From positions 62,001 to 126,000 of the forward strand of contig NZ_JACZEP010000005.1 in the NCBI RefSeq assembly GCF_014863355.1: a stretch of 64,000 bases of DNA, in the 5' to 3' direction. This DNA is from Aminobacter carboxidus. Lineage in GTDB: Bacteria > Pseudomonadota > Alphaproteobacteria > Rhizobiales > Rhizobiaceae. The first letter of the stretch is position 1. Each line of letters opens with the position of its first letter. Positions 1 to 40,677 of this stretch are shown piece by piece. A program made the translations under genes and the position numbers. The notes under the pieces were generated by a model. It saw only the letters and a list, made by a program, of their open reading frames with translations, was not told the origin of the DNA and did no database searches.

Positions 1-216
1 CGTTTAAGCGCCTCCCGTCCCTTCGCCGTCTTCCTCAAGCACCGGCACTTGTTGGTCAGGTCTTTTTTTGAACCTTCGGTTTTGTCTTGAGTGGTTTGAG
101 CGCTGACTTTGCCGGTTTTGGCGACTTGGTGGTCTTTGTCGGCGGATTCTTCGGACCTGGGGTTCTTCCCACCTTCCAAAAAGCGTCTCGGGCGGATCAT
201 CGACCTTTTTCGATGC
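1..216 (-). pseudogene. Lysine/arginine-rich small gene, degraded or partial
   Basis: Read on the minus strand, the stretch starts with codons for SKKVDDPPET, without a convincing start codon. It then runs into a basic, low-complexity tail that stays open in two frames: one ends at about base 4 and the other runs off the window edge. The KKVDDPPET start recurs at 38.6 kb, where 24 bases (38644-38667) are identical to 191-214 here. The shared peptide suggests two members of one small rhizobial family, at least one of them decayed. I do not recognise a function, and the frame is uncertain. Confidence 0.3.
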
Positions 217-294
217 CTTCAGTCGGCAGTACGACGCATAAACGACAACATAACCGCACCGGATACGGCAGTCTCTGGAGTGAGTTACGTTCTA

Positions 295-1500
295 ATGGAC
301 CGGGCGAAAATGGACACGTCTACTCTGCTGATTGCCCACAATGTGCTTAGACAACGCAGCATTCGCGGAACGGCGAGGCTGCTTGGGAAACCAGTCTCCA
401 GCATTGCTGCCGCTATTGACCGATTAGAAGCGCAGATATCCGTGCCCTTGGTTCATAAGGCGGGGACAGGAATCGTCCTGACCCTTGAGGCCGAGAGGCT
501 TTCGCCGTCCATCAGTCAACTTGCCGACCATATCCAAGATGTCATGGCCATTGGAAACCGCACCAGAAGCGATTTGTCATTGAGCCTCAGCGCGCTGTCT
601 CGCTTTGTGCACGTGTCGGAAGCGGGAAGCATCCGTCGGGCGGCGAAGCAGTTGGGGCTCGGTCAGCCCCAACTTGCTCGTCAGATTGCACATGTAGAGA
701 CTACGCTCGGCTGCCGCTTGCTCAATCGCCACGTGGACGGAGCAAAAATGACGGAAGCGGGTAAGCGGCTAGTTAGGTCGACCCGAGCAATCGAAGCCAT
801 TTGGAATGAACTTGCGCACGAAGCTGCTGGGCGGTCGCGCCGAAGTGCTGCAACCATTAGACTTGGTTCGATCATCCCTATGGGGCATGACAGTTTTGTC
901 GCCACCCTACTTGCCTCGCTTGTTTCAACGTGGGTCGACAACAAACCTCGCCAACCGCTTCTGGTTGCGAGCACGACAACTGAAGGTCTCATTGCAGGTC
1001 TGAAGAGCGGCACGTATGACGCCGTGTTCTTGAATAGCGTTAGTGTCCCAACGGATTTCGATGGCTTCCTCGTAGCCAACTCACCGCTGTCGCTCGTCGG
1101 TCAGTCGAGCGCTATGGGGTTCTTGCATGGCCCGGACGACTTGGCCAAGATCGCCCTGAATTCGCTCGTGGCGCTTCCTAGTCCAAAGAGTGGGCTACGC
1201 CAAATCATCAATCGTCTACTGGCCGAAATCCTCACTGAGGACGAGTTGAGGACGTTGAGGGTGATTGAAGTGGATTCGATGCCCGTCATCCTCAACCTGG
1301 TCCTCCGCCACGGGGCCGTTTCAGTGCTGCCTTCGGAATCCGTTACCAGCATCGGAGGAGATCTTTCTCAAATCTCGCTCCCTTCTGAGTACAACCTGCC
1401 ATACTGGCTGGTTTGTGGGAGAAACGACGGCAGCCGCCAGACCGCTCTGGCGGTGCTGCACGTATTAAAGGGGCTGGGTTACGCACAGCACGCGAAATAG
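295..1500 (+). CDS. LysR-like transcriptional regulator with two tandem HTH domains
   Basis: This protein of about 401 aa has two consecutive LysR-type winged-helix segments. The first covers roughly residues 6-70 (RGTARLLGKPVSSIAAAIDR, then a leucine-rich recognition wing). The second, at about residues 93-155, is the better match, with the AAKQLGLGQPQLARQI helix-turn-helix followed by LGCRLLNR and TEAGKRL. A LysR substrate-binding-like effector domain fills the rest. Normal LysR proteins are about 300 aa with one HTH, so the extra ~95 N-terminal residues are unusual. I chose the ATG at 295, which has GTGAG 10 bases upstream; ATG 310 is possible. An open frame extends upstream to 109 but has no LysR-like content. 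The gene converges on the betaine-type ABC operon. Its target and ligand are unknown. Confidence 0.8.
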   Translation: MDRAKMDTSTLLIAHNVLRQRSIRGTARLLGKPVSSIAAAIDRLEAQISVPLVHKAGTGIVLTLEAERLSPSISQLADHIQDVMAIGNRTRSDLSLSLSALSRFVHVSEAGSIRRAAKQLGLGQPQLARQIAHVETTLGCRLLNRHVDGAKMTEAGKRLVRSTRAIEAIWNELAHEAAGRSRRSAATIRLGSIIPMGHDSFVATLLASLVSTWVDNKPRQPLLVASTTTEGLIAGLKSGTYDAVFLNSVSVPTDFDGFLVANSPLSLVGQSSAMGFLHGPDDLAKIALNSLVALPSPKSGLRQIINRLLAEILTEDELRTLRVIEVDSMPVILNLVLRHGAVSVLPSESVTSIGGDLSQISLPSEYNLPYWLVCGRNDGSRQTALAVLHVLKGLGYAQHAK

Positions 1501-1619: not shown

Positions 1620-2561
1620 TCAACGCGTGTGGCAGGCGAGGACTGCATCCCTGTCGAGATAGCCGATAGCCGTGCCGTCTGGTGCCATGACGTCCATGCC
1701 TTGAAGATTGTCATCGAGAATGCGTGCAAGCGCGACATGCAGGCTCGCATCCGGCGCGATGGACGTGCCTTTGGCTGCCGCCCGGGGTGCTGTCATAACA
1801 CTGGCGACATTGATGAGGCTGAGCCGCTTTATCGTCCTGTCTGGCCCAAGGAAGTTCTTAACGAACTCGTTGGCGGGATTGGCAAGGATTGCCTCCGGAC
1901 TATCGTACTGCAGCAACTGACCGTCGCGCATTATGGCCACCCGGTCGCCCATCTTGATCGCCTCATCGATGTCGTGGGTGACGATGACGACGGTCTTGCT
2001 GACCTTCTTGAGGATCTGCCGGAACTCATCCTGGAGGCGGACGCGAGTAATGGGATCGATCGCGCCAAAAGGCTCGTCCATCAGCATGATGGCCGGATCG
2101 GCGGCCAGGGCTCGCGCGAAGCCGACACGCTGCCGCTGGCCTCCCGACAATTCGTGTGGCAAGCGGTCGCGCATTACCGACGGGTCGAGGCTGACGAGTT
2201 CAAGAAGCTCATCGACCCGGCGGTCGGTGCGCGCCTTATCCCAGCCCAGCAGGCGCGGCACCGTGGCAATGTTGCGGGCTATCGTCATATGCGGGAACAG
2301 ACCAACCTGCTGGATGACGTAGCCGATGGTCCGACGCAGTTGCTTGGGATCGGTATCGGCAACATTGTTGCCGCTGACGAGAACTCGCCCGCTGGTTGGC
2401 GTTTCCAGGCAGTTGATCATCCGCATGGTAGTCGTTTTGCCGCAACCTGAAGGGCCGATCATGGCGACAGTCGTCCCCGCTTCGATGTGAAGGTCGAGGT
2501 CATCTACCGCCGGGTGATTGCTGCCGGCGAAGTTCTTGGTGACATGTTCGAGGCGTATCAT
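1620..2561 (-). CDS. Quaternary-amine (glycine betaine/proline type) ABC transporter ATPase
   Basis: This 313-aa ATPase energises import through the two permeases encoded just upstream. It has a Walker A (GPSGCGKTTT, about residues 37-46), signature LSGGQRQRV, Walker B (IMLMDEPFGAID) and switch histidine (VIVTHD). After the ATPase core, about 60 C-terminal residues resemble a single CBS-type module (MTAPRAAAKGTSIAPDASL ... MAPDGTAIGYLDRD). OpuCA/ProV-type proteins of the quaternary amine uptake family carry CBS repeats there that sense ionic strength. Here only about one unit is visible, so osmotic gating may be reduced. It is the last gene of the minus-strand operon. The family points to betaines or similar trimethylammonium compounds; the exact substrate is inferred. 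Confidence 0.9.
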   Translation of the reverse strand: MIRLEHVTKNFAGSNHPAVDDLDLHIEAGTTVAMIGPSGCGKTTTMRMINCLETPTSGRVLVSGNNVADTDPKQLRRTIGYVIQQVGLFPHMTIARNIATVPRLLGWDKARTDRRVDELLELVSLDPSVMRDRLPHELSGGQRQRVGFARALAADPAIMLMDEPFGAIDPITRVRLQDEFRQILKKVSKTVVIVTHDIDEAIKMGDRVAIMRDGQLLQYDSPEAILANPANEFVKNFLGPDRTIKRLSLINVASVMTAPRAAAKGTSIAPDASLHVALARILDDNLQGMDVMAPDGTAIGYLDRDAVLACHTR

Positions 2562-2582
2562 CTCAGTAATCCGTTTCCCGCT

Positions 2583-3218
2583 TCAGCGTCGGTATGAAAC
2601 ACTGCGTTCGAGCCAGCCGAAGGCCAGTTCCGCAAAGATCGCGAGGAACGCGATCGGAATAGCCCCTACAAGGAGCCGAGGCATGTCCATGATGGCTATG
2701 CCAGCATTGATGAAGTCGCCTAGGCCGCCTCCACCGATGAACGATGCCAGTGCGGCTCCGCCGATCACCTGGATGGCGGCCGTGCGGACGCCGGAGAGGA
2801 TCGAAGGGACAGCCAGCGGCAACTCGATCTGCAAGAGAATCTCGGTCCGGCCCATTCCCATTCCATCGGCGGCGTCGAGAATGGCCGGATCTACTTCGCG
2901 AATGCCGATGATCGTATTGAGCAGCAAGGGCGGGATGGCCAAAACGACAAGCGCAATTACTGATGGCAGCAGACCAATGCCCAAGATGGGCATTGCGGCT
3001 GCAAGGATCGCGAGGCTCGGAATGGAGCGTGCGGCACCCGCAATATTGATTGTGACAAATGCCGCACGAGGCGACCTCGCAACGGCAATGCCCGTGGGAA
3101 GGGCGATTGCAAGCCCGATGCAAAGCGAAACAAGGCTCATCACCATGTGCCGATTGAATGCGCCAGTGAAGCTGCCGAGATTGGCTGCCATCCACTGAAA
3201 AGCTTCGACGACGATCAT
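2583..3218 (-). CDS. OpuC/ProW-type ABC permease (second of pair)
   Basis: A 211-aa inner-membrane protein with about five or six hydrophobic segments and the BPD_transp_1 coupling region (GIREVDPAILDAADGMGMGR, then ELPLAVPSILSGVRTAAIQV). That is the EAA-loop arrangement of glycine betaine/carnitine/choline permeases (OpuCB/OpuCD type). It shares one base with the preceding permease gene and is followed 21 bases later by the ATPase, so translation is probably coupled. It likely forms a heterodimer with the product of 3218-3853. No fused binding domain is present. Confidence 0.88.
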   Translation of the reverse strand: MIVVEAFQWMAANLGSFTGAFNRHMVMSLVSLCIGLAIALPTGIAVARSPRAAFVTINIAGAARSIPSLAILAAAMPILGIGLLPSVIALVVLAIPPLLLNTIIGIREVDPAILDAADGMGMGRTEILLQIELPLAVPSILSGVRTAAIQVIGGAALASFIGGGGLGDFINAGIAIMDMPRLLVGAIPIAFLAIFAELAFGWLERSVSYRR

Positions 3219-3853
3219 CAGGCTTGCCTCCCATTGCGCCGCTGCAGCGACTTTTCCAGTGAGGTCAGGAGAAAATCGGCGGATAGCGCTAGTGCCGAGG
3301 TCAGGAGCCCGCCAGCTATGATCTTTTCGGGGAAGCGCTGATCGATGCCCTGGAATATGATGACGCCGAGTCCGCCGGCGTTGATGTAGGCGGCAACTGT
3401 CGCGATACCGATGACAGTCACTACAGCGATACGGACTCCACCAACGATGTAGGGCATCGCAAGCGGCAACTCGACTTCCCAGATTCTACGAATGGTCCCG
3501 TAACCCATGCCGTGCGCCGCTTCGAGAATTTCGTGCGGGATTGACTGGAACCCGATCCCGATGTTGCGGACTAGGATCATCAACGAATAGGCGGCAAGCC
3601 CGAGGATTGCCGGCGCCGGCCCTATGCCCATCACGGGTATGAGCAGGGCGAACAGAGCGAGGCTGGGGATAGCGAAAAGAATGCTGGTCACAAGAATGAT
3701 GGTGGTGAAAGTCCTTGGACGCCTTGCCGCCCAAATCCCGACGGCAAGCGAGATTATCAAAGCGATTCCCACCGAGGAGAAGACCAAATATAAATGTTCC
3801 ACCATCGCTTCAACGAGCCGGGGGATGTTCTTCGGAACCCAAGTCAAAAACAT
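3218..3853 (-). CDS. OpuC/ProW-type ABC permease (first of pair)
   Basis: A 211-aa multi-pass membrane protein, homologous in layout to the next gene. Its EAA loop includes SIPHEILEAAHGMGYGTIRR and ELPLAMPYIVGGVRIAVVT, followed by conserved glycines (INAGGLGVIIFQGIDQ). Two separate permease subunits of equal length with a separate binding protein and one ATPase match the OpuCABCD/YehWXYZ-type layout. It follows the PhnD-like gene after 55 bases on the same strand. It is likely the inner-membrane channel for the substrate bound by the protein at 5935-6822. Confidence 0.88.
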   Translation of the reverse strand: MFLTWVPKNIPRLVEAMVEHLYLVFSSVGIALIISLAVGIWAARRPRTFTTIILVTSILFAIPSLALFALLIPVMGIGPAPAILGLAAYSLMILVRNIGIGFQSIPHEILEAAHGMGYGTIRRIWEVELPLAMPYIVGGVRIAVVTVIGIATVAAYINAGGLGVIIFQGIDQRFPEKIIAGGLLTSALALSADFLLTSLEKSLQRRNGRQA

Positions 3854-3908
3854 TGCTCCTACTTATTCCGGTGCCGCGTGGATAGATCCCAGTCAATTCC
3901 CTGTGGCT

Positions 3909-4724
3909 TCACCACACCGCAAGCCTCTGATCGACAGCATCTGCACGTTCGGCAAGAATCCTGTAATCGGCCAAATCGGGAAGTGCGAACCGTACCAGAC
4001 CGAGTTGGTGCAGCAACGCGCGCCCATCCTGGCTCTCATGGGTTCGCAACAAAGCCTGTCGCAGCGCGCTAACCATTTCTGCTGGGGCATAGGGAGACGT
4101 GACGAGTGGCGGACAAGGTGTCGGCTTCGTCGTAGCCAGGATTTGCAATCCTGCCACCGCATCCGGCTCGTGTAAGGCCAGCAACTCGTATGCGTAGGCG
4201 TCGATCGCGCCAACATCGATGCGTCCACTGCGCAGTGCCTCCAAGACCCCCGTGGGGTTGAGAAGTGGGCCGACCGGGCTTTGTTCGGGCGCGTTCCCGG
4301 CTAGAAGTTCGTCGAGGTGGCGGCGCGGCGCGTGGTATCCGGATTGGGAATCCCGTACTGTCCATCCCCAGATCGCAGCCGTCAGATCCGAAGCGGACTT
4401 TATCGGGCCATCGGCAGCGACCACTATATGGCTCGCATAATAGGGTCGGCCGCCAGCCCACGACGCTGCCGCCACTGGCGCAGCCAGAATCGTTGGGCGT
4501 CCTGCATCGCACCAGCGCGATAAGGGATAACCGCACATGAAAACGACCCCCATATCGGGCCGTTTCCAGAGTTCGGGCAGAGGCGCGGGCGAGGCGTAGG
4601 CGATAATGTCGAGTGCTACCCCCGCTTGACCGCTCAGCCATGCGAACAGATCGTCCCACCGCGCGCGCGCGCCTGCCGAGACATTGTACATTCGCGAACA
4701 GGCGATGAATTTGGTGACGCTCAT
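3909..4724 (-). CDS. PhnD/SsuA-like periplasmic-binding-fold protein without signal peptide
   Basis: The 271-aa product resembles the phosphonate-binding (PhnD/TAXI-like) fold. It has an N-terminal YNVSAGARARWDDLF segment, a ligand-pocket-like VVFMCGYPLSRW, VAADGPIKSASDL, WTVRDSQSGYHAPRR and a C-terminal VTSPYAPAEMV. Starting at ATG 4724 it has no signal peptide or lipobox, so it should be cytosolic despite a fold normally used outside the membrane. The start lies 7 bases after the stop of the cyclodeaminase-family gene, implying co-translation. Extending the frame upstream would overlap that gene and adds no signal peptide. It might be a sensor, chaperone or enzyme accessory; its role is unknown. 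Confidence 0.7.
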   Translation of the reverse strand: MSVTKFIACSRMYNVSAGARARWDDLFAWLSGQAGVALDIIAYASPAPLPELWKRPDMGVVFMCGYPLSRWCDAGRPTILAAPVAAASWAGGRPYYASHIVVAADGPIKSASDLTAAIWGWTVRDSQSGYHAPRRHLDELLAGNAPEQSPVGPLLNPTGVLEALRSGRIDVGAIDAYAYELLALHEPDAVAGLQILATTKPTPCPPLVTSPYAPAEMVSALRQALLRTHESQDGRALLHQLGLVRFALPDLADYRILAERADAVDQRLAVW

Positions 4725-4731
4725 GATCGGA

Positions 4732-5736
4732 TCAGGCAAAACGAAGCTTCTGGCCGACATTCATGCGCCGTGCCTTTGCAACGATCGCAGCACCAAGTGC
4801 GACATCCGTGCTGCTGAGCCCGCGATGCCAAAACAAGATCGTCTCGTCGTCGCTCTCGCGACCTGGCTTGATGCCACAAACGATCTGACCCATCTCGGCG
4901 TGTAGTGACTCCAAAGTGACCTTGCCTTCGTCGACATGGCGGCGGAGCGCGCCGAAGGGGCGTCCAGGCTGGCACTGCCCCCAATCGTCGACAACGACTT
5001 TGTCCATGATGTCGGTGAGATCGAGTTCCAGCGCGCTCATCGTCCCGTAGGGAACCACGAATGCCCCCTTCTTCACCCAGCTTGTCTTAAATAGCGGAGC
5101 GGGCTCGGGCAGCCGGCTGGCCTCTACCATGATGTCGGCGCCCTTCAGGCAGTCCTCCCAGTTGTCTGTCACTATGATCTTCTTGCCGAGATCCTTGGAT
5201 AGGCGCGCAGCAAAGCCCTCGCGGCTTTCGGGGCGGCGTGAGTGGACGCGAATCTCTTCGAAATCAAATAGATGGTCGAGCAGGCGGATGTTCCAGTAGG
5301 ACGTGCCGCGGGCTCCGATGTGGCCCAGAATCTTACTGTTCTTGCGCGCAAGATGCTTTGCGCCGAGAGCCGTGATCGCACCGGTACGCATATCGGTGAT
5401 GGCTGTAGCATCAATGATGGCCTTGGGCACGCCCGTACGTGGGTCAAACAGGTTCAATACTGCCAGCTCCGAGGGCAGGCCGACCTTGTAGTTTTCGACA
5501 AAATCACCGACTATCTTCACCCCGGCGAAGTCGAGCGGCTTTACGTAGCCCCTGAGTACGTTGAAATGTCCCTTGTCGGAACTTTCCGGAACAAGATGAA
5601 CTCGGGGTTCAATCACCGTTTCACCACGCCCCTGGGCAGCCAGCGCTTCGGACACCGCGTCAAGGATTTCATCATTGGTCAGTTCCAGCGCCTTGGTGTC
5701 GAGGGCGTTGATGTAGTCGATCCAGATTTCCTGCAT
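4732..5736 (-). CDS. Ornithine cyclodeaminase / mu-crystallin family protein
   Basis: A 334-aa Rossmann-fold enzyme of the OCD/mu-crystallin family. Members include ornithine cyclodeaminase, alanine dehydrogenase and ketimine reductases, all using NAD(P). Visible marks are the substrate-side lysine in FAGVKIVGDF (about residue 74), TDMRTGA, the dinucleotide loop GHIGARGTSYW (about 138) and the C-terminal GLSSTDVALGAA. The loop lacks the usual alanine after the third glycine. I chose ATG 5736 because AAGAAG lies just upstream; an in-frame GTG at 5754 would place that Shine-Dalgarno inside the gene. It sits inside the betaine/lyase operon, so it may reduce or cyclise an imine intermediate. The reaction is not known. 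Confidence 0.8.
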   Translation of the reverse strand: MQEIWIDYINALDTKALELTNDEILDAVSEALAAQGRGETVIEPRVHLVPESSDKGHFNVLRGYVKPLDFAGVKIVGDFVENYKVGLPSELAVLNLFDPRTGVPKAIIDATAITDMRTGAITALGAKHLARKNSKILGHIGARGTSYWNIRLLDHLFDFEEIRVHSRRPESREGFAARLSKDLGKKIIVTDNWEDCLKGADIMVEASRLPEPAPLFKTSWVKKGAFVVPYGTMSALELDLTDIMDKVVVDDWGQCQPGRPFGALRRHVDEGKVTLESLHAEMGQIVCGIKPGRESDDETILFWHRGLSSTDVALGAAIVAKARRMNVGQKLRFA

Positions 5737-5895
5737 TTTTTTTGTCTTCTTCACATTTCAACTTGAGTGGAACTTTGAGCATCATTCCGTCCTGGTGGGG
5801 CCAGGCGCAGGACGGCCGCTCGTCCTGCCGTCGACGGCCAACCGGCCCGGCGCTGATATCGCCGGCTTTCGACCGTTTGTGCGGCACGTGCCATT

Positions 5896-5922
5896 GCCGG
5901 CCGGGTGATTGTTCCGGCCGGC
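5896..5922 (-). promoter_or_regulatory. Strong GC hairpin downstream of the binding-protein gene
   Basis: GCCGGCCGG (5896-5904) and CCGGCCGGC (5914-5922) form a perfect 9-bp stem with a 9-nt loop. It lies 12 bases after the binding-protein stop, in the 198-base gap before the cyclodeaminase gene. There is no U-tract. Such hairpins often protect or attenuate binding-protein mRNA so that it outnumbers the transporter mRNA; that role is inferred. Confidence 0.5.
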
Positions 5923-5934
5923 TTGAACTGGGCC

Positions 5935-6822
5935 TCAGTCGAGCAGGCCTTTTTCCTTCAAGAAGGAAATGGCGACATCGCGAGCTTCTTCACGGTCGTT
6001 CTCAACGCGGGCGTTGAGGGTGCGCATGGTGGCGTTATCAAGATGGGTGCCGACAGTTTCGAGCAGGTCGGAGATTTTTGGATTGGCATCGAGCGTCTGC
6101 TGACGCACGACAGGCGCGACGTAGTAGGGCGGGAACAACCCCTTGTCGTCCTCCAATGCCACCAGGTTTTGTGACTCGATCTGCCAATCGGTGGCAGCGC
6201 CGTTCGCTGTATCGATGTCTTTTTGCTGGAGAGCATCGTAACGAAGCCCGAGCTTGGCGAACTGCTTGAATTCCTTGAATTCCGCGCCGTAGACCTTCTT
6301 CAGACCGGGCAGGCCATCCTTGCGCTCGGGGAATTCTGGCCCGCCGCCGAACACCATGGTGCCAGATACTTTGGCAAGGTCGGAAAGGCTCTTGAGATTG
6401 TTCTCCTGCGCGGTCTCCGCGCGTACGACAATGACGTAGCCGTTGTTGATGCCTGTGGGCTTCAGCCAGTTGAGCTTGAACTCCTTGGCATAGAAGTCTT
6501 TGACCTGATCATAGACCTTCTGAGCGTCAGTAGAAACGTCGCCCTTGACAACGGCCGACAGTGCGGTCCCGGTGTATTCCGGGTAGAGATCAATCTGACC
6601 CGTCGTCAAAGCTTGATGGGCGATCAAGGTGCCGCCGAGATTGATCTTGCGTTCCACCTGGAAGCCAGCGTCCTCCAGAACGGCGGCGTACATTTCCGCC
6701 AGGATAAATTGCTCGGTGAAATTCTTACTGCCGATCTTGATGGGTTCTGCGGCAGCTGTATGGAGCGTTGCTGCTGCCGTGATGAGAGTTGCGGCGATAG
6801 CCTTGGTAGTCCACTTTTTCAT
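5935..6822 (-). CDS. Periplasmic substrate-binding protein, OpuC/ProX (betaine) type
   Basis: A 295-aa secreted binding protein. A Sec signal peptide covers about residues 1-25 (MKKW ... TLHTAAA, cut before EPIKIG). The mature part has the OpuAC hallmarks IGSKNFTEQFILAEMY, a TGQIDLYPEYTGTA motif and IDTANGAATDWQI. These are typical of OsmF/YehZ/OpuCC and the related ergothioneine-binding EgtU, which hold trimethylammonium groups in an aromatic cage. GAGGGAA is the ribosome site. The gene directly follows the lyase in the operon (115-base gap). That pairing is why I suspect a betaine-type amino acid as cargo. Other choline-like or carnitine-like ligands remain possible. Confidence 0.9.
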   Translation of the reverse strand: MKKWTTKAIAATLITAAATLHTAAAEPIKIGSKNFTEQFILAEMYAAVLEDAGFQVERKINLGGTLIAHQALTTGQIDLYPEYTGTALSAVVKGDVSTDAQKVYDQVKDFYAKEFKLNWLKPTGINNGYVIVVRAETAQENNLKSLSDLAKVSGTMVFGGGPEFPERKDGLPGLKKVYGAEFKEFKQFAKLGLRYDALQQKDIDTANGAATDWQIESQNLVALEDDKGLFPPYYVAPVVRQQTLDANPKISDLLETVGTHLDNATMRTLNARVENDREEARDVAISFLKEKGLLD

Positions 6823-6937
6823 TGTCGGTTCCCTCTGTTTTCAAGTGGTCGTCTGATTTTCTTGCGGCTTGATGTCTGTGCCGTCCCCCTTCGAGGCGGA
6901 CTTGTTGGTACCTTTGCTTAGTTCGGTGGTGGATGGG

Positions 6938-8458
6938 TCAGCGGCTCCCAACTGCGGACGAATTCGTGATCGCGTCCGCAAGGCGCATGAAATCCGGCCC
7001 TTGGGCCCGATCTTCTCCCAGTGGCTCGACAAGGTCGCGCACGAAGCGATAGGCGGCACCCGATCCCGCCCCGAGCTGGTCGCTGACGCCTCTGAGATCT
7101 GCCGCTTGCGCAGAAGCAGTGAGTTCGATGGCCACCAGGTAGCGGAGCCTCTCCACGATCTCCCGTGTCTTCGCGAGAACGCGAGGCGCCATCGAAGCCT
7201 GATCCTCAACTCCATCGGCGACGGGAATAGGGGTAAGCGAGACCGGATTGGCAAGATGGCGGATTTCTGCCTCGAGGGCGGAAACGGTCTTTTGGACGGT
7301 GGCGAACCCCGCACGGTTCTGGCTCATCGAAGTGAGGAAGCGCGGCAGGTCGGACATGCCCGGCGACATGATCTTCATCGTCCGGTACGCCGTTGCCGCG
7401 GCACAATGCGCCAGCGCTTGACCCAGCCGCTCCCAAGCCAGCACAAAAGCCGTCAGGTCGAAATTGGCATGCGATAGAATGAGGCCTTCCGATGCCAGAA
7501 CTACGGGGTTGTCTCCCGAGCTCTCAAGTTCAATCAAGGTCGCTTCTCTGGCCTCAGCGATTGCATGCGACAGCGCTCCCCATACCTGTGGCGCGCAACG
7601 ATAGCTCAACGGATCCTGCAGGCGCCGCGCCGCGCCTTCTTCCAGTAGTGAGCTCCCCGCAAGGACTTCGCGCAGGCGCTCCGCAACGGCCCGCTGGCCG
7701 AAAGCGGGTCGGGCAGCAAGCGCGCGGTCGTCAAACGCGGTCGTGTTGGCGCGGAAGGCTTCAAAGTTCAATGCTACGGCAAGAAGGGACCAGTCGAAAA
7801 GTCGATCGATATCGTGGACCAGTAGGCAAGCCTGCGAGACCGAAAGGCTGTTTGCGACAACGAGGGCGTGGCCGTCCTTCGGACCCAGGTCTATCGGCTC
7901 CAATCCTGCCCTGTTCAGCGCGTCCAACGCCGGCATCACCTCGCCACCAAACTCAGCCTCGCCATAGCCGAGAAGGGCGCGCGCCATGTGTGCGAGTGGC
8001 GCAAGATCGGCGGCGCCGATCGAGCCGAGCGATGGAACCACAGGATGAAATCCGGCGTTCAGCGCGGCAACCAATGATGTGACGATACCGGGCGAAACGC
8101 CCGCCCCTCCGGCCGCCATTCCAGCCAGTCTGACTGCCATCATCGCTCTGACCATTTCTCGCGGCAGATCCGCTCCAACCCCGACGGCGCGTGCCTGCGG
8201 CACCCTTATCTGGAAGGTCACCAGGTCATCGGCTGCCAGGCGAGTGTCCACTCCGGCACCGAGCCCGGTTGTCAATCCATAGGCAGGCAGGTTCAGCTCT
8301 GCATAGCGATCAACGACGGCTCGCGCGGCAGCGATGCGCTGCTCGACTTCGGGGGAGATTTCGATGCGCGCGTTCTCACGCGCTATTGCAACGATGTCGT
8401 TGATCGTCGCAGGAGGGGTCTTCAACACCACAGTCGCGGGCGCGTCAGTCATGCTCAT
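6938..8458 (-). CDS. Aromatic amino acid lyase (HAL/PAL) family protein lacking the MIO triad
   Basis: The 506-aa product has the full HAL/PAL layout: YGLTTGLG with the active-site tyrosine (Tyr60), QDPLSYRCAPQVWGA, ELESSGDNPVV and VEDQASMAPR. The family's cofactor MIO forms from Ala-Ser-Gly in GSVGASGDLAPLAHM. Here residues 145-158 read GSIGAADLAPLAHM: one residue is missing and the ASG serine and glycine are gone. A MIO-dependent histidine or phenylalanine ammonia-lyase reaction is therefore unlikely. Ergothionase, which eliminates trimethylamine from ergothioneine, is as I recall a MIO-less relative. With a betaine-type transporter in the operon, a trimethylamine-lyase role is attractive but unproven. 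The start at ATG 8458 has GGAAAG upstream. Confidence 0.85.
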   Translation of the reverse strand: MSMTDAPATVVLKTPPATINDIVAIARENARIEISPEVEQRIAAARAVVDRYAELNLPAYGLTTGLGAGVDTRLAADDLVTFQIRVPQARAVGVGADLPREMVRAMMAVRLAGMAAGGAGVSPGIVTSLVAALNAGFHPVVPSLGSIGAADLAPLAHMARALLGYGEAEFGGEVMPALDALNRAGLEPIDLGPKDGHALVVANSLSVSQACLLVHDIDRLFDWSLLAVALNFEAFRANTTAFDDRALAARPAFGQRAVAERLREVLAGSSLLEEGAARRLQDPLSYRCAPQVWGALSHAIAEAREATLIELESSGDNPVVLASEGLILSHANFDLTAFVLAWERLGQALAHCAAATAYRTMKIMSPGMSDLPRFLTSMSQNRAGFATVQKTVSALEAEIRHLANPVSLTPIPVADGVEDQASMAPRVLAKTREIVERLRYLVAIELTASAQAADLRGVSDQLGAGSGAAYRFVRDLVEPLGEDRAQGPDFMRLADAITNSSAVGSR

Positions 8459-8547
8459 ATTACTTTCCGACGGACGCTGCCGTTGTCCGTCATGGTGGAT
8501 TGTAGCTTCGAGGCGATGCTTTTCAGCCGGATAAGGGAATTGTTTGG

Positions 8548-9399
8548 TCAAGCGAGCCTCGCTACACCGTTGTCGAGAATAGTGGTGCCACGCGACGGCG
8601 CGACGCAGCGGAAGCGGATGTCCAGTCCGGTGCGCCACATCTGGAACTGCAGTGTATCTCCTGGGAAAGCTGGCGCGGTGAACCGGGCGGCAATCATGCC
8701 GAGCGCGGCGAGTTCCGACCCTGCCGTCATCCGCGAGATCACGTACCCGGCATGCCCAAAGGTGCACAGACCGTGCAGGATGGGTCGCGTAAAGCCACCA
8801 CTTTTGGCAGCCGACGGATCAACGTGGAGGGGGTTTTGATCGCCATTGAGCCGATATAGGAGCGCCGCATCCTCGGCGATGCGCAGCTGGTGCGACGCGT
8901 CGGGTTGTTTGTTGGGCACAGGCGGTAGCGGTTCGGGCGGCCTGCCGGCGGAGCCACAGCCGCCATCACCCCGGCAAGCGTTGGTCTGTACGATCGTTGC
9001 CACGGGCTCGTCGGTACCCGCGAGGGACACCACACGCTCGAACGCTGCGAACATGCCTTTGCCAACGCCCCGGTCGATGACCGACAGGCTGCGCGCAGAC
9101 GAAACCATGGAGGCGTCGAGAGGCATCGGGCGATGCACGGTGAGGCGGTGCTCTGCGTGGACCACTTGGCTCCAGTCGACACCAACCTGTTTCATCCACG
9201 GGCCCGCATGCGCCACCACATTGGCGAGCGTAGGGGCTGTCAGCAGGTCAGCTTCGTAAACATAGCGCAAGTGCGCTGTGTCCAGTGGCTGGGTTCCATA
9301 CCCAACCGACATTGCGTAGAGGATGGCATCCTTGGCCGAAACGGTCTGGCGGGTTTTGGGAATGGCAAAATCCAGGATCGAGGCGGCAGGGATGCTCAC
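8548..9399 (-). CDS. MaoC / hydratase-2 domain protein (R-specific enoyl-CoA hydratase-like)
   Basis: A 283-aa double-hotdog protein. The C-terminal half has the hydratase-2 signature YRLNGDQNPLHVDPSAA, with the catalytic Asp187 and His192, then GGFTRPILHGLCTFG. The N-terminal half is the non-catalytic hotdog seen in the hydratase 2 of multifunctional enzyme type 2. The family adds water to trans-2-enoyl-CoA to give (R)-3-hydroxyacyl-CoA. The start is GTG 9399, which overlaps the SDR stop in a GTGA junction; an upstream open frame is not needed. Between a CoA-transferase/SDR pair and a lyase that should yield an acrylate-type acid, a role in hydrating an aryl-acrylyl-CoA is plausible. Confidence 0.87.
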   Translation of the reverse strand: MSIPAASILDFAIPKTRQTVSAKDAILYAMSVGYGTQPLDTAHLRYVYEADLLTAPTLANVVAHAGPWMKQVGVDWSQVVHAEHRLTVHRPMPLDASMVSSARSLSVIDRGVGKGMFAAFERVVSLAGTDEPVATIVQTNACRGDGGCGSAGRPPEPLPPVPNKQPDASHQLRIAEDAALLYRLNGDQNPLHVDPSAAKSGGFTRPILHGLCTFGHAGYVISRMTAGSELAALGMIAARFTAPAFPGDTLQFQMWRTGLDIRFRCVAPSRGTTILDNGVARLA

Positions 9400-10202
9400 G
9401 AGCCGTCTCCCGTGCCAGGCGCTTGCATACGCACTCCGCCAGCCAGGCGTACGCCGCCATCGACCGAAAGCAGTTCGCCTGTGACGAAAGCAGCGCCCTC
9501 GATCAGCCAAACCACTGCACCAGCGACGTCTTCGGGCGTGGCTACCCGCCCCAATGGTGCTGTCTCGGAATAGCGCTTCGCGAGCGCTGAGTAGGCGTCG
9601 GTTCCGAGCGTTTGGCGCATCCATCGCGTGTCAATCACGCCAGGACAGACGGCGTTGACCCGGATATCCGGCCCGCAGGTGCGAGCCAACGCCATGGTCA
9701 GCGCATTGAGCGCACCCTTTGACGCGGTATAGGCGAGCGAGCTACCGCCACCAGTGAAAGCAACGTTGGAAGAGACGTTGACAATGGCGCCTCCGCCGCT
9801 GGCGCGCATCGTTGGGATCGCTGCCCGGCACATCTGGTAGGCTCCGATCACGTTGACGGCAAAAACGTCTTGAAAATCGCTGGCGGACAGGCTTTCCAGA
9901 TCGAAGGGGTTCGACTTCACGGTCATGGCGGCGTTGTTGACCAGCGCGTCGAGGCGACCCCAGCGATCGACGACTGCGCTAACCATCCCCCGGCAGGCGC
10001 CGTCGTCGGAGACGTCGCCCTGAACAACGATGACCTCGGCGCCCATCGTCCGGCAGGCATCGGCGGTGTCGTCGGCCTCGGCCTTGCTCCGGTTGTAGTT
10101 GACCGCAACGCGCGCGCCCCGCTCGGCAAACTGGCGCACGCAAGCCGCGCCGACGCCCGTGGCGGAGCCCGTGACGATGATCACTGACTCGCGAATGTTC
10201 AT
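9396..10202 (-). CDS. Short-chain dehydrogenase/reductase (SDR)
   Basis: A 268-aa classical SDR using NAD(P). It has TGSATGVGAA for nucleotide binding (residues 11-20), the LVNNAA motif (88-92), catalytic Ser144/145 in VNVSSN, Tyr158 and Lys162 in YTASK, and a VCPGVIDTRWM C-terminal segment. The Asn-Tyr-Asn-Arg-Ser stretch after strand 2 favours NADP-type binding. Coupled overlaps join it to the CoA-transferase (ATGA at 10199-10202) and to the hydratase. In this setting it most likely oxidises or reduces the 3-hydroxyacyl-CoA made by the hydratase-2 protein. The substrate is inferred from context only. Confidence 0.88.
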   Translation of the reverse strand: MNIRESVIIVTGSATGVGAACVRQFAERGARVAVNYNRSKAEADDTADACRTMGAEVIVVQGDVSDDGACRGMVSAVVDRWGRLDALVNNAAMTVKSNPFDLESLSASDFQDVFAVNVIGAYQMCRAAIPTMRASGGGAIVNVSSNVAFTGGGSSLAYTASKGALNALTMALARTCGPDIRVNAVCPGVIDTRWMRQTLGTDAYSALAKRYSETAPLGRVATPEDVAGAVVWLIEGAAFVTGELLSVDGGVRLAGGVRMQAPGTGDGS

Positions 10203-11749
10203 GCGACGAAATCTTTCATTGCGCCCGGCGCATAAAGGCGGGCATCCATCGTCAGGAGATGATCGGAAACCGCCACGCCTTGCGGCAGCCGCTCGGTGAC
10301 ATGCTTGCGTATGTCGATGCCGGGTGCCACTTCGGTAAGGGTCAGCCGACCGTCCAGCACCCTGAAGACCGCCCGTTCTGTGACGACTGTCTGCTCTTGC
10401 CCCGCAGGCGCATTGGCAGGGTCGGAACTGACCTGAGCGACCTGATCGACGATCTTACATGTCCGTCCGTCGGCGCCTATAGCGAGCCGGCCGTCGCGTA
10501 TTTCGATTTCTGCACCACCTGTCGAGAACGAGCCGACATACACAATCCTGCCGGCAGTCTGCGAAATGTTAGTGAAGCCGCCGACTCCTACGATTGACTT
10601 GCCGAAGCGGCTGACGTTGACAGCGCCTCGAACGTCCACCTCGGCCATCCCAAGGAAGGCTATGTCGATGCCGCCGCCATCGTAAAAATCGAATTGGGAT
10701 GCCTGGGGGATAACAGATGAAGGATTGATCGCGGCACCAAAGGAAAGTTCCTCGGCGGGAACGCCGCCGATGACGCCGGATTCGATCGTGACCGTATAGC
10801 CGCCGTGGTCTTCTTCGCTGGCAATGCGTCCAATCCCGGCAGGGATTCCTATGCCCAGATTGATGACCGGCTGGTCAAGGTGAAGAAGTTCCTGGAAGGC
10901 GCGGCGTTGAATGACCTTATCTACGGAGAGAGGCAGGGGCTCGAGGCTGGAGACGGCGGGGCGTAACTTGCCCGTATACGAGGGGTTGTCGGTCTCACCA
11001 AAGCTGATCCCGTGTTGGGCTGCGTCCTCGCAAACGACCACATAGTCGACCAGGGTGCCCGGAATTCGCACGTCGCTGGGCGCTAGCGAACCTCGCCGGG
11101 CGACCTGCTTGACCTGAACGATGACGACACCACCGGAATTGCGCCCTGCTTGTGCCATCGCCAGGACATCGAGAGGGAAGGCCTCGTCCTCGAGCGTTAT
11201 GTTCCCGTCCTCGTCGGCTGTAGTACCGCGTAACAGCACGCAGTCGAGCGGCATGGACGGATAAAGCAGCCAGTCCCGGCCGCGCAAGGACACGCGCTCG
11301 ACCATCGCCTCAGGTGTCGAGGCATTCATCCGGCCACCGCCATTGACCGGGTCCATAAAAGAACCAAGGCCTATATGCGTGATGACACCGGGCTGGCCGG
11401 CTGCGATCGCCCGGTACAACTGGGCGATGACCCCCTGGGGCCAACAATGGGCTTCGATCTTCTCTTCGAGAGCGAGATTGCCGAGCCGCGGCGTGCCGCG
11501 CCAGCCGCCGGCTATCACGCGCTTGACCAGCCCTTCGTAGCCGAAGTGTCCCATGCCTCGAGTTTTGCGGTCGCCCGTGCTGGCCGCAAAAAGCAGGGTC
11601 AGGGCGCGAGGGGCGGACTCGGCGAGGAACCTGTCTTCGACAGCGGCTGTTATCGCCTCAGGATGGCAGCATCCTCCGAAACCGGAGACAGCAACAGTCA
11701 TCCCATCGCGCAGCTTTTCAGCTGCTTCGCGGGCAGAAATGATTAGCAT
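10199..11749 (-). CDS. Family I CoA-transferase (acetate/propionate CoA-transferase type)
   Basis: A 516-aa fusion of alpha-like and beta-like CoA-transferase domains, of the YdiF/propionate CoA-transferase kind. The N-terminal domain has VSGFGGCCHPE and GGWRGTPRLGNLALE. The C-terminal domain has the catalytic Glu323 in TIESGVIGGVP, plus NLGIGIPAGI and FDFYDGGGIDIAFLG. The enzyme moves CoA between acids through a glutamyl-CoA intermediate. As first gene of the operon it has AGAGGAA before ATG 11749 and a HutC-like operator at 11773-11784. It would activate the unsaturated acid released by the lyase, feeding the hydratase and SDR genes that follow. Confidence 0.9.
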   Translation of the reverse strand: MLIISAREAAEKLRDGMTVAVSGFGGCCHPEAITAAVEDRFLAESAPRALTLLFAASTGDRKTRGMGHFGYEGLVKRVIAGGWRGTPRLGNLALEEKIEAHCWPQGVIAQLYRAIAAGQPGVITHIGLGSFMDPVNGGGRMNASTPEAMVERVSLRGRDWLLYPSMPLDCVLLRGTTADEDGNITLEDEAFPLDVLAMAQAGRNSGGVVIVQVKQVARRGSLAPSDVRIPGTLVDYVVVCEDAAQHGISFGETDNPSYTGKLRPAVSSLEPLPLSVDKVIQRRAFQELLHLDQPVINLGIGIPAGIGRIASEEDHGGYTVTIESGVIGGVPAEELSFGAAINPSSVIPQASQFDFYDGGGIDIAFLGMAEVDVRGAVNVSRFGKSIVGVGGFTNISQTAGRIVYVGSFSTGGAEIEIRDGRLAIGADGRTCKIVDQVAQVSSDPANAPAGQEQTVVTERAVFRVLDGRLTLTEVAPGIDIRKHVTERLPQGVAVSDHLLTMDARLYAPGAMKDFVA

Positions 11750-11772: not shown

Positions 11773-11784
11773 TTGTATAGACAA
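11773..11784. promoter_or_regulatory. HutC/GntR-type operator upstream of the CoA-transferase operon
   Basis: TTGTATAGACAA lies 24 bases upstream of the CoA-transferase start. It differs by one base from the perfect palindrome TTGTCTAGACAA at 39000-39011. The GT-x-TA-x-AC core fits the HutC subfamily of GntR regulators. Its place next to the start suggests repression of the operon. Confidence 0.6.
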
Positions 11785-11960: not shown

Positions 11961-12881
11961 CTATGACGCCAAGTGGACGGGCCCATTGGAGCGGTCTTTG
12001 CACTCACCGACAACCAATTCGCGAAATGTCTCGCTCGCTCGCGTGCGGTGCCTTTCGCGATGGCGTATGAGGCTGAACCCACGTGAAGGTAGGGCGAGTG
12101 GTAAGGTGATGAGCTTTCCAGTGCTTACAGCTGCCTGCACCACAGTTTCGGATAGGGCCGTGGCAAACTGTCCAGCTTCGACCGCTGCACAGATGGCTTC
12201 GTTGGACGGGAGTTCAATTGCCACCCGTAGATGGTTGGGGTCGAGTCCGTGGGTACGCAATGCATCCTCGAAACTCGATCGCGTGCCTGAACCAGGTTCG
12301 CGCAATACCCATTCAGTTTGATGAAGCTCGTGGATGAGGGCGGGCGGACGACTTGCCCAGGGATGATTGCTGCCGACTACGATAACGAGCCGATCGGTGG
12401 CTACAAGTTCGACAGAGACAGAAGGTTCGTCGATGGTTCCTTCGATGAAGCCAATGTCTGCAGCACCAACCATAACAGCCTTCGTGCACTGTGCAGTGTT
12501 GCCAACCTCGATTTTCAGGTCGACCTGCGGATAGCGGCAGTGGAAGTGCACAAGCAGGCGTGGCAGCCAGTAGCTCGCGATGGTCTGGCTCGCGAAGACT
12601 GATAGTGTGCCGCGTCTGATGCCGCCCAAGTCCGCCATCGCGGTCTCGGCGACCCGAACTCTGGCCAAGATGGCTTTGGCCTCTTCGGCCAGTGCTTTGC
12701 CAGCTTCGGTCAGTTCTATCCGGCGGCCGACCCGGTGGAATAATTTCACGTCGTGTCGCGTCTCGAGCGCATGGATCGCGCCACTCACGGTCGATTGTGT
12801 CAGGTTCAGGGCTTCTGCGGCGCGCGTCACATGCTCCCGTTCAGCAACCGCCAAGAATATTCGAAGCTGCTCGAGCGTCAC
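11961..12881 (-). CDS. LysR-family transcriptional regulator (YeiE/CysL-like)
   Basis: A 306-aa LysR regulator of standard size. The N-terminal HTH covers residues 1-60 (EHVTRAAEALNLTQSTVSGA, LETRHDVKLFHR), followed by a two-lobed effector domain with LRVAIELPSNEAICAAVEAG. It starts at GTG 12881, 80 bases downstream of the yeiH-like gene on the same strand. LysR proteins of this branch (YeiE, CysL) often sit beside yeiH and respond to sulfur or related anions. It probably controls the exporter gene and could act at the palindrome at 14046-14059. The effector is unknown. Confidence 0.87.
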   Translation of the reverse strand: MTLEQLRIFLAVAEREHVTRAAEALNLTQSTVSGAIHALETRHDVKLFHRVGRRIELTEAGKALAEEAKAILARVRVAETAMADLGGIRRGTLSVFASQTIASYWLPRLLVHFHCRYPQVDLKIEVGNTAQCTKAVMVGAADIGFIEGTIDEPSVSVELVATDRLVIVVGSNHPWASRPPALIHELHQTEWVLREPGSGTRSSFEDALRTHGLDPNHLRVAIELPSNEAICAAVEAGQFATALSETVVQAAVSTGKLITLPLALPSRGFSLIRHRERHRTRASETFRELVVGECKDRSNGPVHLAS

Positions 12882-12961: not shown

Positions 12962-13990
12962 TTAGCTCATCAGCGAAACGAGGCCTAGTCCGACAGCTGC
13001 AATAAACAACGTTGCAAGACCAGAAAGAAAAAGTGGCCGAAAGCCCCTCTGTCTGAGCTTCGAAAAGTTCGTTCCCAGCCCCAACGCGCCCATCGCCGCA
13101 GTTAGAAGGACCGGGGTGAAGGACAAGATGGGCGCGCGGACCTGTTCGGGCACTAGTCCGGAACTGTTGAGCATCGTCAGCAGCAGGAACCCAACAATGA
13201 ATGTCGGGAACACCTGCATGCCTGTGCGTCGGCGAGACGGGTCGTCGGCAGGACTTGCAGCCAGCACTGCAATGCCGACCACCAGCGGGGCCAGCATCAT
13301 AACTCGTGCCAGTTTGGCTACGACCGCAGTTTGGCCCGCGATTTCGCCGCCTTGAAAGCCTGCGCCCACCACCTGTGCAACCTCATGCACGGAAAGGCCG
13401 ATCCACAATCCATAGTTATGCGGGTCCAGCCCGAGAACGACTTGGAGGAAAGGGTAGAGGAACATCGCAATGGTGCCGAACAGGGTAATGCATGCCACCG
13501 CATAAGCCACGTCCTCGTCATCGGCTTTTGCGACCGCATTGGCACCCGCGATGGCGGATGCCCCGCAAACCGATGTCCCCGCGGCAAGTAGCAGTGTGAG
13601 CTTGCGGTCAATTCCAAGGATCCTGCCCATCCAGACAGTGAAGAAGAAGGTCAATGCCAGGGTCGTGGCCGCAAAGGCCAAACCCGTGACACCGATGCTG
13701 GCCAGTTGTCCGAAGGTCAGTTGCAGGCCAAGCAGGGCGACTGCCAGGCGCAGCAGCCTCTTGCCCGCCATTCCTACGCCAGCATTCGCTTCCGTTGAAA
13801 AGCCCACGGTGTTTGCAAACAGCATTCCCACGAAAATCGCAGAGATCATCGGGCTCAGGGCCGAGAAAAAGGGCAGGTGACGCAATCCATATGCGGAGGC
13901 GGTAATCACCGCAACGAGTACCAGGCCTGGAACGTAGCTGGCGACTCCACTGGCTTTCCGCGGAGCAAGAACTATCGATGGGTGGCTCAA
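12962..13990 (-). CDS. YeiH-family (UPF0324) putative sulfate/sulfite exporter
   Basis: A 342-aa integral membrane protein with about nine or ten hydrophobic helices. It carries YeiH-family signatures: ALLGLQLTFGQL, TSVCGASAIAGANAV, LSVHEVAQVVGAGF and ILSFTPVLLTAAMGALGLGT. Some family members have been proposed to export sulfite or sulfate made during organosulfonate breakdown (TauZ-like role). The start appears to be TTG 13990, with GGA 8 bases upstream; a later start would clip the first helix. It is read first, then the lysR gene. Lying just upstream of the lyase operon, it might dispose of sulfur released from a sulfur-containing substrate; that link is inference. Confidence 0.85.
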   Translation of the reverse strand: MSHPSIVLAPRKASGVASYVPGLVLVAVITASAYGLRHLPFFSALSPMISAIFVGMLFANTVGFSTEANAGVGMAGKRLLRLAVALLGLQLTFGQLASIGVTGLAFAATTLALTFFFTVWMGRILGIDRKLTLLLAAGTSVCGASAIAGANAVAKADDEDVAYAVACITLFGTIAMFLYPFLQVVLGLDPHNYGLWIGLSVHEVAQVVGAGFQGGEIAGQTAVVAKLARVMMLAPLVVGIAVLAASPADDPSRRRTGMQVFPTFIVGFLLLTMLNSSGLVPEQVRAPILSFTPVLLTAAMGALGLGTNFSKLRQRGFRPLFLSGLATLFIAAVGLGLVSLMS

Positions 13991-17351: not shown

Positions 17352-17373
17352 CCAACAAAAAAAGGGGAACAAA

Positions 17374-18915: not shown

Positions 18916-18984
18916 GGTCATGAGAGGCGAGATGTCGATGGACCAGATGACCAGTTGGGGCAGACCAGACGCAGAGCCCCGTTT

Positions 18985-19950
18985 ATGAATAGATCGCAAC
19001 GCACCGCCGCTTTCATCGCGAGTCGTCTGGCATCGGTGGCGCTGACCATCGTCGGCGCCACGCTGCTTCTGTTCCTGATGGTGCGTCTCGTGCCGGGAGA
19101 CTTCACCTCGGTGATGCTCGGCCCGCGAGCAACGCCCGAGCTTCGCGCCCAGATAACCCACGATATGGGCCTGGACCGAAACATGATCGAGCAGCTCTGG
19201 CTGTTCGCCAGCCGCGCCGCGACCGGCAATTTCGGCGAGGATGTCGTCTCGCGCCGGCCGATCCTCGACATCGTTCTCGATGTCATTCCCAACACGCTGG
19301 CCCTGGCTTTCAGCGCGCTGGCGTTGGCGCTGATCGTCGGCATTCCGATCGGCGTCATCGCGGCGCTGAAACCGGGGTCGTGGCTCGACAGTGGCTTGGC
19401 CCTGCTTTCGATCTCCTTCATTACGACGCCGACGCTCGTGGTCTCGGTCATCCTCTTCCTGATCTTCGCCATCGGCCTGCACTGGTTGCCGGTGGCCGGT
19501 GCCGGTGAGCCCGGCGACATCGCGGACCGGCTACGGCACCTGATCCTGCCCAGCGTGGCGCTGGCGCTCGGCTGGGTGGGCTACATCTCGCGCCTGGTGC
19601 GCGCGGCGCTGCTTGACACACTGGCTGAGCTGCATGTGCGCACGATGCGCGCCTATGGTGTATCGGAATACCGTATCGTTGGCCTGTACGCACTGAAGCT
19701 CGCTTTGGTGCCGGTCGTGTCTATCCTCGGCATTGGGCTCGGTGACCTGATCGGCAGTTCGGTCGTCGTCGAGATCATCTTCGCCCGCTCCGGCATCGGC
19801 AGCCTGATCTTCAACTCGATCGCGCAACGCAACTACCCCGTGGTCCAGGCCTGCGTCGTCTTTATCGTCGCCTTCTACATCGTCGCCAACCTGGTAGTTG
19901 ATATGATCAACGCGCTGCTCGACCCGCGCATCTCGGGGGCCCGCAGATGA
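18985..19950 (+). CDS. Dpp/Opp-type ABC permease (DppB-like)
   Basis: A 321-aa inner-membrane permease with six expected helices. It shows the usual DppB features: RLASVALTIVGATLLLFLMV at the N-terminus, VRLVPGDFTSVMLGPRATPE before a periplasmic loop, and EAA-region residues ALLDTLAELHVRTMRAYGV. I prefer ATG 18985 over an upstream TTG at 18955 because DppB proteins start right before the first helix. It overlaps the next permease by 4 bases (ATGA). It forms the channel with the 19947-20789 product. Confidence 0.88.
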   Translation: MNRSQRTAAFIASRLASVALTIVGATLLLFLMVRLVPGDFTSVMLGPRATPELRAQITHDMGLDRNMIEQLWLFASRAATGNFGEDVVSRRPILDIVLDVIPNTLALAFSALALALIVGIPIGVIAALKPGSWLDSGLALLSISFITTPTLVVSVILFLIFAIGLHWLPVAGAGEPGDIADRLRHLILPSVALALGWVGYISRLVRAALLDTLAELHVRTMRAYGVSEYRIVGLYALKLALVPVVSILGIGLGDLIGSSVVVEIIFARSGIGSLIFNSIAQRNYPVVQACVVFIVAFYIVANLVVDMINALLDPRISGARR

Positions 19951-22581: not shown

Positions 22582-22589
22582 TCAAGCTG

Positions 22590-22680
22590 CGGATGGATTT
22601 ATTTGTGCTGACTGACGCCCAACGGGCGGCGAAGATGGAACCGCATTGCCTCGGCAAGCCGAGCGACCCCGGGCGTGTAA
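22590..22680 (+). pseudogene. IS5-family transposase N-terminal fragment
   Basis: The plus strand encodes MDLFVLTDAQ, a small insertion, then AKMEPHCLGKPSDPGR. This is the characteristic start of IS5-family (IS427-group-like) transposases, which normally continue with a catalytic DDE domain. Here the similarity ends after about 30 codons, and no inverted repeats or downstream transposase are visible. It lies exactly between the ABC operon and the lyase unit, marking an old insertion or recombination joint. Confidence 0.6.
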
Positions 22681-40666: not shown

Positions 40667-40677
40667 GGGCGAATCCG

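Follow-up and report, generated by a model that had tools for sequence, protein, structure and literature searches.

We find that a run of ten genes in Aminobacter carboxidus, on the minus strand of a 64-kb window of contig NZ_JACZEP010000005.1 (positions 62,001 to 126,000; the window is the whole stretch analysed, and coordinates below are counted from its first letter), is well supported as an operon for a histidine betaine, with ergothioneine or its sulfonate as the favoured candidate substrate. The fuller reading, towards which we lean with some reserve, is that the operon imports and degrades an S-substituted histidine betaine, most likely ergothioneine or its 2-sulfonate, along a route that converges on urocanate. 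In the list of open reading frames (ORFs) of the window the run extends from 11749 down to 1620, and in order of transcription it encodes a coenzyme A (CoA)-transferase, a short-chain dehydrogenase/reductase (SDR), a two-domain MaoC hydratase, a lyase, an OpuAC binding protein, a protein of the ornithine cyclodeaminase (OCD) family, a PhnD-like protein, two permeases and a ProV-family ATPase (Pfam families CoA_trans, SDR, MaoC/hydratase-2, Lyase_aromatic, OpuAC, OCD_Mu_crystall, Phosphonate-bd, BPD_transp_1 twice, and ABC_tran). A pattern-based scan of a species-genome collection, reaching close relatives only, yielded 45 distinct related loci, to which the counts below refer. The features are as follows, where MIO denotes the 4-methylideneimidazole-5-one group of histidine ammonia-lyase (HAL).

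10199 to 11749, minus strand: CoA-transferase, acetate/3-oxoacid type, operon gene 1 (PF01144); in order in 21 of the 45 related loci
9396 to 10202, minus strand: SDR oxidoreductase (PF13561); order kept in the same 21 loci as the CoA-transferase
8548 to 9399, minus strand: two-domain MaoC/hydratase-2 type enoyl-CoA hydratase (PF01575 and PF22622); GTG start overlaps the SDR stop
6938 to 8458, minus strand: MIO-less HAL-family lyase, ergothionase-like; Y60, R90, A149-A150 at the MIO site, K390, E418
5935 to 6822, minus strand: OpuC/ProX-type binding protein with a signal peptide (by eye) (PF04069)
4732 to 5736, minus strand: OCD-family oxidoreductase (PF02423); its Rossmann motif (GARGTS) and catalytic loop (YGTMS) are both altered
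3909 to 4724, minus strand: PhnD-like protein, probably cytosolic (PF12974); the ORF reaches 4760
3218 to 3853, minus strand: OpuC-type permease A (PF00528)
2583 to 3218, minus strand: OpuC-type permease B (PF00528)
1620 to 2561, minus strand: ProV-family ATPase (PF00005); TIGR01186 at 311.9 bits, below the cutoff of 326.6
11774 to 11783, no strand assigned: HutC-operator-like site TGTATAGACA, 24 bases before the CoA-transferase start
11961 to 12881, minus strand: YeiE-like LysR regulator (NF040889 at 202.9 bits, cutoff 480)
12962 to 13990, minus strand: YeiH-family putative sulfate exporter (TIGR00698 at 205.4 bits, cutoff 232.6)
109 to 1500, plus strand: LysR-type regulator on the far side of the ATPase gene; in locus L022 a relative at 61% stands ahead of the lyase

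Overlaps of 4 bases join the CoA-transferase to the SDR and the SDR to MaoC (in R. johnstonii the SDR and MaoC genes likewise overlap by 4 bases), and the lyase start at 8458 lies 89 bases past MaoC. The conserved OCD start is the ATG at 5736, according to alignment A1, not the GTG at 5754 to which the ORF extends, and the PhnD-like protein probably starts at the ATG at 4724. An earlier note on this DNA had described ten one-strand genes of these families as a single operon; all ten are in place and Pfam agrees with the families. Moreover, because all ten genes recur in the same order on one strand in 21 of the 45 loci (lyase identity 73-84%), the run is not a chance arrangement, and the operon is upheld. 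The same note knew of no described pathway with this exact gene set; the set, at any rate, is not unique to the A. carboxidus genome. It did not mention the features at the edges, namely the YeiE-like LysR, the YeiH exporter, the operator-like site and, in relatives, a HutC gene before the lyase.

We would picture the route as follows. An OpuC-type ATP-binding cassette (ABC) importer would take up the betaine, and the MIO-less lyase would remove trimethylamine to leave a 2-substituted urocanate. The OCD protein, probably together with the PhnD-like protein and with NADPH, would then convert this to urocanate, with loss of the sulfur as sulfite or sulfide; urocanate would enter the normal histidine utilisation (hut) pathway, and sulfite could leave through a YeiH-type exporter. 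The first promoter would, in many relatives, be under a HutC repressor, a urocanate-like acid switching the operon on, while the CoA-transferase, hydratase-2 and SDR would form an accessory arm that oxidises the acrylate side chain as a CoA ester.

The lyase, which scores 464.3 bits against PF00221, has lost the MIO tripeptide Ala-Ser-Gly, reading SIGA-ADLAP where SVGASGDLAP would be expected, with one residue deleted. With no Ser or Gly at the MIO site and a TIGR01225 score of 376.7 bits (cutoff 539.15), it falls outside histidine ammonia-lyase proper. Its closest solved relative is the ergothionase of T. denticola (6s7j), at 283.7 bits versus 229.9 for the best HAL, and 6s7j is also the top Foldseek match of its structural model. 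Three residues of that ergothionase, a Tyr, a Lys and a Glu that Maurer et al. in 2019 reportedly found to be essential for catalysis, have Y60, K390 and E418 as their aligned counterparts. In a tree of 35 rows, a branch with support of 100/99 separates MIO-HALs and the GYLTH lyases (described below) from the one-residue-deleted lyases and ergothionase, the support of the deleted-MIO lyase group itself being 77/84. The MIO-less, ergothionase-like lyase of the earlier note is thus borne out by the loss of MIO, the retained Tyr, Lys and Glu, the best matches and the tree.

The link to histidine comes from HutC and its operator. A HutC gene stands just before the lyase in 26 of the 45 loci, after MaoC where MaoC is kept, and these genes are 67-100% identical to the copy in L035, which scores 279.2 bits against TIGR02018 (cutoff 220). 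The footprinted Pseudomonas HutC site is TGTA-N2-TACA in an excerpt of PMC12977541, and the word TGTATATACA fits it. All HutC-bearing loci but L044 (25 of 26) contain this exact word, as against 0 of the 19 HutC-less loci, with 27 copies in total among the 951,707 bases searched; in 21 of the 21 full loci the CoA-transferase match begins 32-47 bases downstream of it. Searched as CTGTATATACAG, the word has a single exact match in the genome of R. johnstonii 3841 and likewise in that of R. lusitanum P1-7. In the window itself, TGTATAGACA at 11774-11783 is the only site within one mismatch of TGTA-N2-TACA in 64 kb, and TTGTATATACAA with one mismatch gives 1 match, versus 0 in 100 shuffles. We infer that HutC would bind the operator site and that a urocanate-like acid would release it.

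Two relatives tie parts of the operon directly to hut genes. In L108 (genome G721, of the same phylum and another family), a hut part (hutU, a BCCT transporter, a GYLTH lyase, hutI and hutG) is continued on the same strand by a lyase part, made up of the lyase (61%), binding protein, OCD, PhnD, permeases and ATPase; two TGTATATACA words precede each part. In L148 (G626), OCD and PhnD come after hutC, hutH and hutU; hutI and hutG lie beyond them, and the stretch has no deleted-MIO lyase. HutU is present in the A. carboxidus genome, on another contig than the window. The earlier note had proposed ergothioneine, hercynine or a plant betaine such as hypaphorine; the histidine betaines are retained and favoured over hypaphorine because of the HutC genes, the HutC operator words and the hut-linked relative.

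The window also holds a HutC gene of its own away from the operon, at 47020-47781 (TIGR02018 236.1 bits, cutoff 220). It adjoins an Xaa-Pro-peptidase-like gene, a pyridoxal phosphate-dependent class-V enzyme (PvdN/SufS-like, below cutoffs) and a Nik/Opp-type importer, the whole occupying 39086-47781.

The most constant partner of the lyase is the OCD protein, kept in 45 of 45 loci, with the PhnD-like protein kept in 43; the earlier note had listed both without giving either a role. In a class sample of 385 genomes and a phylum sample of 398, both including the window's own genome, the OCD clade, with that genome left aside, accompanies the deleted-MIO lyase in 10 of 10 class genomes versus 16 of 374 others, and in 8 of 8 phylum genomes versus 2 of 389 others (Fisher p of 3e-13 and 3e-15 respectively, ignoring the relatedness of genomes). 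MIO-HALs (including those of G061, G123, G146, G238 and G334) and GYLTH lyases were dropped from the lyase count. Lyase and OCD genes are adjacent in L110, L112, L113, L120, L124 and L126, have the binding protein between them in L114, and lie apart in G131, G147, G337, G352, G398, G094 and G321. In ornithine cyclodeaminase and alanine dehydrogenase, a GxGxQA-type nucleotide motif and an Asp-bearing catalytic loop are important. The OCD protein has neither, though it scores 176.1 bits against PF02423: all 19 of the 19 clade rows aligned carry GARGT[SA] for the former and YGTMS for the latter. After the second strand the aligned clade carries HSRR[PEK]ESR, a sequence that suggests NADPH use.

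The nearest solved chains to the PhnD-like protein are Aio and ArrX binding proteins (best 61.7 bits). By eye it has no evident signal peptide, and it is on that ground unlikely to be a periplasmic part of the importer. As a tentative proposal, which we regard as possible rather than probable, the OCD clade with GARGT[SA] and YGTMS may be a new NADPH enzyme that strips the C2 sulfur group from thiourocanate or urocanate-2-sulfonate and so delivers urocanate to the hut pathway, aided in some lineages by a cytosolic PhnD-like oxyanion-binding partner, and would be the obligate second step of ergothioneine use in these Proteobacteria.

Among 20 further regions, the neighbours of the OCD clade show no single theme except for hut in L148; they include SBP_bac_5 proteins (among others in L136 and L138), TctA, a class-IV aminotransferase and other HAL-family proteins. 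Two HAL-family proteins near the clade (L135 11442-14506 and L145 4777-6342) have the non-MIO stretches GMGMDGETIP and GNGGAGEVLP, which suggest further MIO-less lyase types.

The importer is of the expected kind. The binding protein has an aromatic cage (Y83, Y129, Y195 and Y233) and carboxylate-binding residues (K33, T86 and R167) as in OpuC/ProX binders of quaternary amines, in line with the betaine importer of the earlier note. Upstream of the operon, the YeiE-like LysR scores slightly higher against a selenium-metabolism LysR model (207.1 bits) than against NF040889, and by curated cutoffs neither it nor the YeiH-like protein is a member of YeiE or YeiH, both being related only. Relatives of YeiH (29-32% identical to the window's) together with a related LysR are found in 15 of the 45 loci, and that of R. 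johnstonii is annotated as a putative sulfate exporter. In Salmonella, according to PMC12880088, YeiE controls YeiH for sulfite resistance. Additionally, directly upstream of the OCD and lyase genes of L114 (G415) is a gene for a luciferase-family monooxygenase that scores best against the SfnG model (239.5 bits, cutoff 382.95). Together, the YeiE/YeiH neighbours and the SfnG-like monooxygenase hint at the release of a sulfur oxyanion.

A number of observations weigh against ergothioneine or its sulfonate as the substrate, or against the steps proposed for it. Over aligned columns the lyase is 33% identical to ergothionase and 33% to HAL, and identity alone is therefore undecisive; ergothionase is a long branch in the 35-row tree, and the Foldseek template modelling (TM) scores are alike (0.83 for ergothionase, 0.83-0.85 for HALs). 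The lyase model has a predicted local distance difference test (pLDDT) score of 74, with several active-site loops below 50, and was used for fold only and not for ligand placement, while the AlphaFold2 model of the OCD protein from alignment A1 (pLDDT 46) was unusable and was discarded, with no fold comparison. The lyases of G398, G094 and G321 (3 of the 18 lyase genomes, and 3 of the 10 class lyases) are without the Lys, and the deleted-MIO group may thus hold more than one substrate. At the threshold of the lyase search (E<=1e-72, three scored candidates per genome), the OCD clade occurs with no detected lyase in 16 class and 2 phylum genomes. YeiH was not seen near 30 of the 45 loci. The window operon has no HutC gene, and its operator word departs from the consensus at one position. 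When one mismatch is tolerated, CTGTATATACAG occurs 0-5 times per strand in eight genomes versus 1-10 for its reversed control (0 versus 6 in the A. carboxidus genome); it is no commoner than the control, and we therefore place weight on exact matches only. In the binding protein, Phe35 replaces an invariant Gly of EgtU beside the carboxylate Lys, and Tyr83 an EgtU Phe; on these two residues we reject an EgtU-type ergothioneine binder.

Finally, Arg90 of the lyase stands where both HAL (His83) and ergothionase have His, a position whose role in ring recognition is known from work on HAL and tyrosine ammonia-lyase (TAL). We considered Arg90 as a marker of a sulfonate substrate and retain it as a hint only: the residue is His in the OCD-adjacent lyase of G411 (L069 and L124) and in the 58% identical lyases of five genomes, and it is Arg in the lyases of L115 to L118, beside which no OCD was seen.

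One alternative is that the substrate is hercynine, from which the lyase would produce urocanate and trimethylamine directly, OCD and PhnD doing something else. The HutC genes, operator words and hut linkage all fit urocanate itself, and a binding protein without the EgtU-specific Gly suits hercynine as well. However, the lyase retains the ergothionase-type Lys390; the GYLTH family, found inside the hut run of L108 beside a BCCT betaine transporter, is the better candidate for hercynine; and direct formation of urocanate would leave both the presence of OCD in 18 of 18 lyase genomes and the YeiH neighbour unexplained. We accordingly consider hercynine an unlikely substrate of this operon.

Two lyases of the GYLTH kind occur elsewhere in the window, at 22813-24309 (+) and 57345-58976 (+); these further HAL-family proteins are 93% identical to each other and MIO-less (SAGYLTH). 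In R. johnstonii the orthologue on pRL11 carries a hutH annotation and is preceded by hutC and an ABC transporter; the SAGYLTH lyase is, from its sequence context, a candidate for acting on hercynine or another histidine derivative. An SBP_bac_5-type importer at 17374-22581 leads into the lyase at 22813-24309, and ahead of the importer, within a stretch that spans 15327-24309 in all, lies an ORF that we take to be CocE-like. Mesorhizobium hawassense (L021) carries counterparts of this hydrolase gene and of the importer genes at 82-93% identity; there they come after lyase-OCD-PhnD, beyond a TetR gene.

A second alternative makes the CoA arm the main path, an aryl betaine yielding an aryl acrylate that is degraded as its CoA ester by the CoA-transferase, hydratase-2 and SDR. 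This was in essence the complete pathway of the earlier note, with the CoA arm at its core, and its chemistry is self-consistent; furthermore, the three genes come first behind the operator word, in an order kept in 21 of 45 loci, and because of that position we regard the arm, where present, as belonging to the operon. Nevertheless, no thiolase is found among the ten operon genes, and 24 of the 45 loci are without the full set: 4 (L027, L037, L044 and L046) have MaoC only and 20 have none of the three at the locus, although the upstream side of L021, which is among the 20, is hidden from view by a contig end. A search for the CoA-transferase covered 19 genomes of these 24 loci (18 lacking the gene at the locus, and that of L022). 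No match of at least 45% was found elsewhere in 18 of the 18 genomes lacking the gene at the locus, 4 of which have matches of 38-39%; the best match in the L022 genome is 38%, and the 78% orthologue of R. johnstonii, a positive control, was recovered. Since these 18 genomes have no close match elsewhere, the CoA arm looks accessory and dispensable, and L108 couples the lyase set to hut genes instead. A pathway with the CoA arm at its core is hence not sustained and seems to us improbable, while CoA-ester chemistry as the role of an accessory arm is possible.

Hypaphorine, tyrosine betaine or another aromatic betaine of plants is very improbable as the substrate: the plant partners of Rhizobium, a name borne by the records of 34 of the 45 loci, may offer such compounds, and a ProX-type cage could bind any of them, but the HutC gene and operator word in the operons of relatives point to an imidazole acrylate, the lyase keeps the Lys and Glu, and a literature search joining hypaphorine, lyase and trimethylamine found nothing.

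The remaining loci are in records titled Mesorhizobium, Inquilinus, Ancylobacter and Rhizobiales, with one labelled Mycobacterium, and related strains are not independent samples in our counts. The last of these (L052, NZ_VCCH02000021.1, labelled Mycobacterium sp. KBS0706) has the full ten-gene operon, with a lyase 75% identical; its label may be wrong, since the other copies in this set are from Alphaproteobacteria.

Fungi and some bacteria produce the widespread antioxidant ergothioneine, and to our knowledge little is known of its recycling by soil and plant bacteria. The operon described here occurs in many Rhizobium genomes, including that of the well-studied R. johnstonii 3841, where it bears annotated names such as hutH and hutC, its lyase, WP_011649502.1, and its regulator, WP_011649501.1, being annotated as histidine ammonia-lyase and HutC. 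MIO-less lyases can thus carry a histidine ammonia-lyase annotation though the MIO residues are gone. Given its presence in this strain, the identity of the betaine, the role of OCD and the gain in nitrogen, carbon or sulfur are directly testable.

Among known systems, the ergothionases of T. denticola (6s7j) and Burkholderia sp. HME13 share with the window lyase a HAL fold without MIO, the one-residue deletion and the aligned Tyr, Lys and Glu; the comparison was made with the T. denticola enzyme, which differs in that identity is 33% and His stands at Arg90. Beliaeva, Leisinger and Seebeck are said to have described in 2021 a five-step ergothioneine catabolism with ergothionase first, then thiourocanate hydratase and later hydrolases, and the ten window genes include no urocanase-like or hydrolase gene. 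Yan, Huang and Zhang (ACS Catal 2022) published a catabolic pathway for ergothioneine sulfonate, which PMC13405746 cites for Agrobacterium radiobacter; as far as its title and the citing sentence go, it too has a trimethylamine-lyase acting on an ergothioneine compound in a related host, and it may already cover the core of the operon. Literature searches joining ergothioneine with ornithine cyclodeaminase, or with Rhizobium, degradation, lyase and trimethylamine, returned nothing relevant, and one on urocanate-2-sulfonate and pRL12 locus tags returned only citations of that pathway's title. The binding protein of the EgtU importer is likewise of the OpuC/ProX type and agrees in the positions of cage and carboxylate residues, whereas Phe35 and Tyr83 of the window protein follow glycine-betaine ProX, and binding protein and two permeases are separate genes here. 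Lastly, HutC-regulated hut operons have in common with the relatives of this operon a HutC gene and the TGTA-N2-TACA word, yet where those operons carry hutHUIG, a MIO-less lyase, a betaine importer, OCD and the CoA arm are found here.

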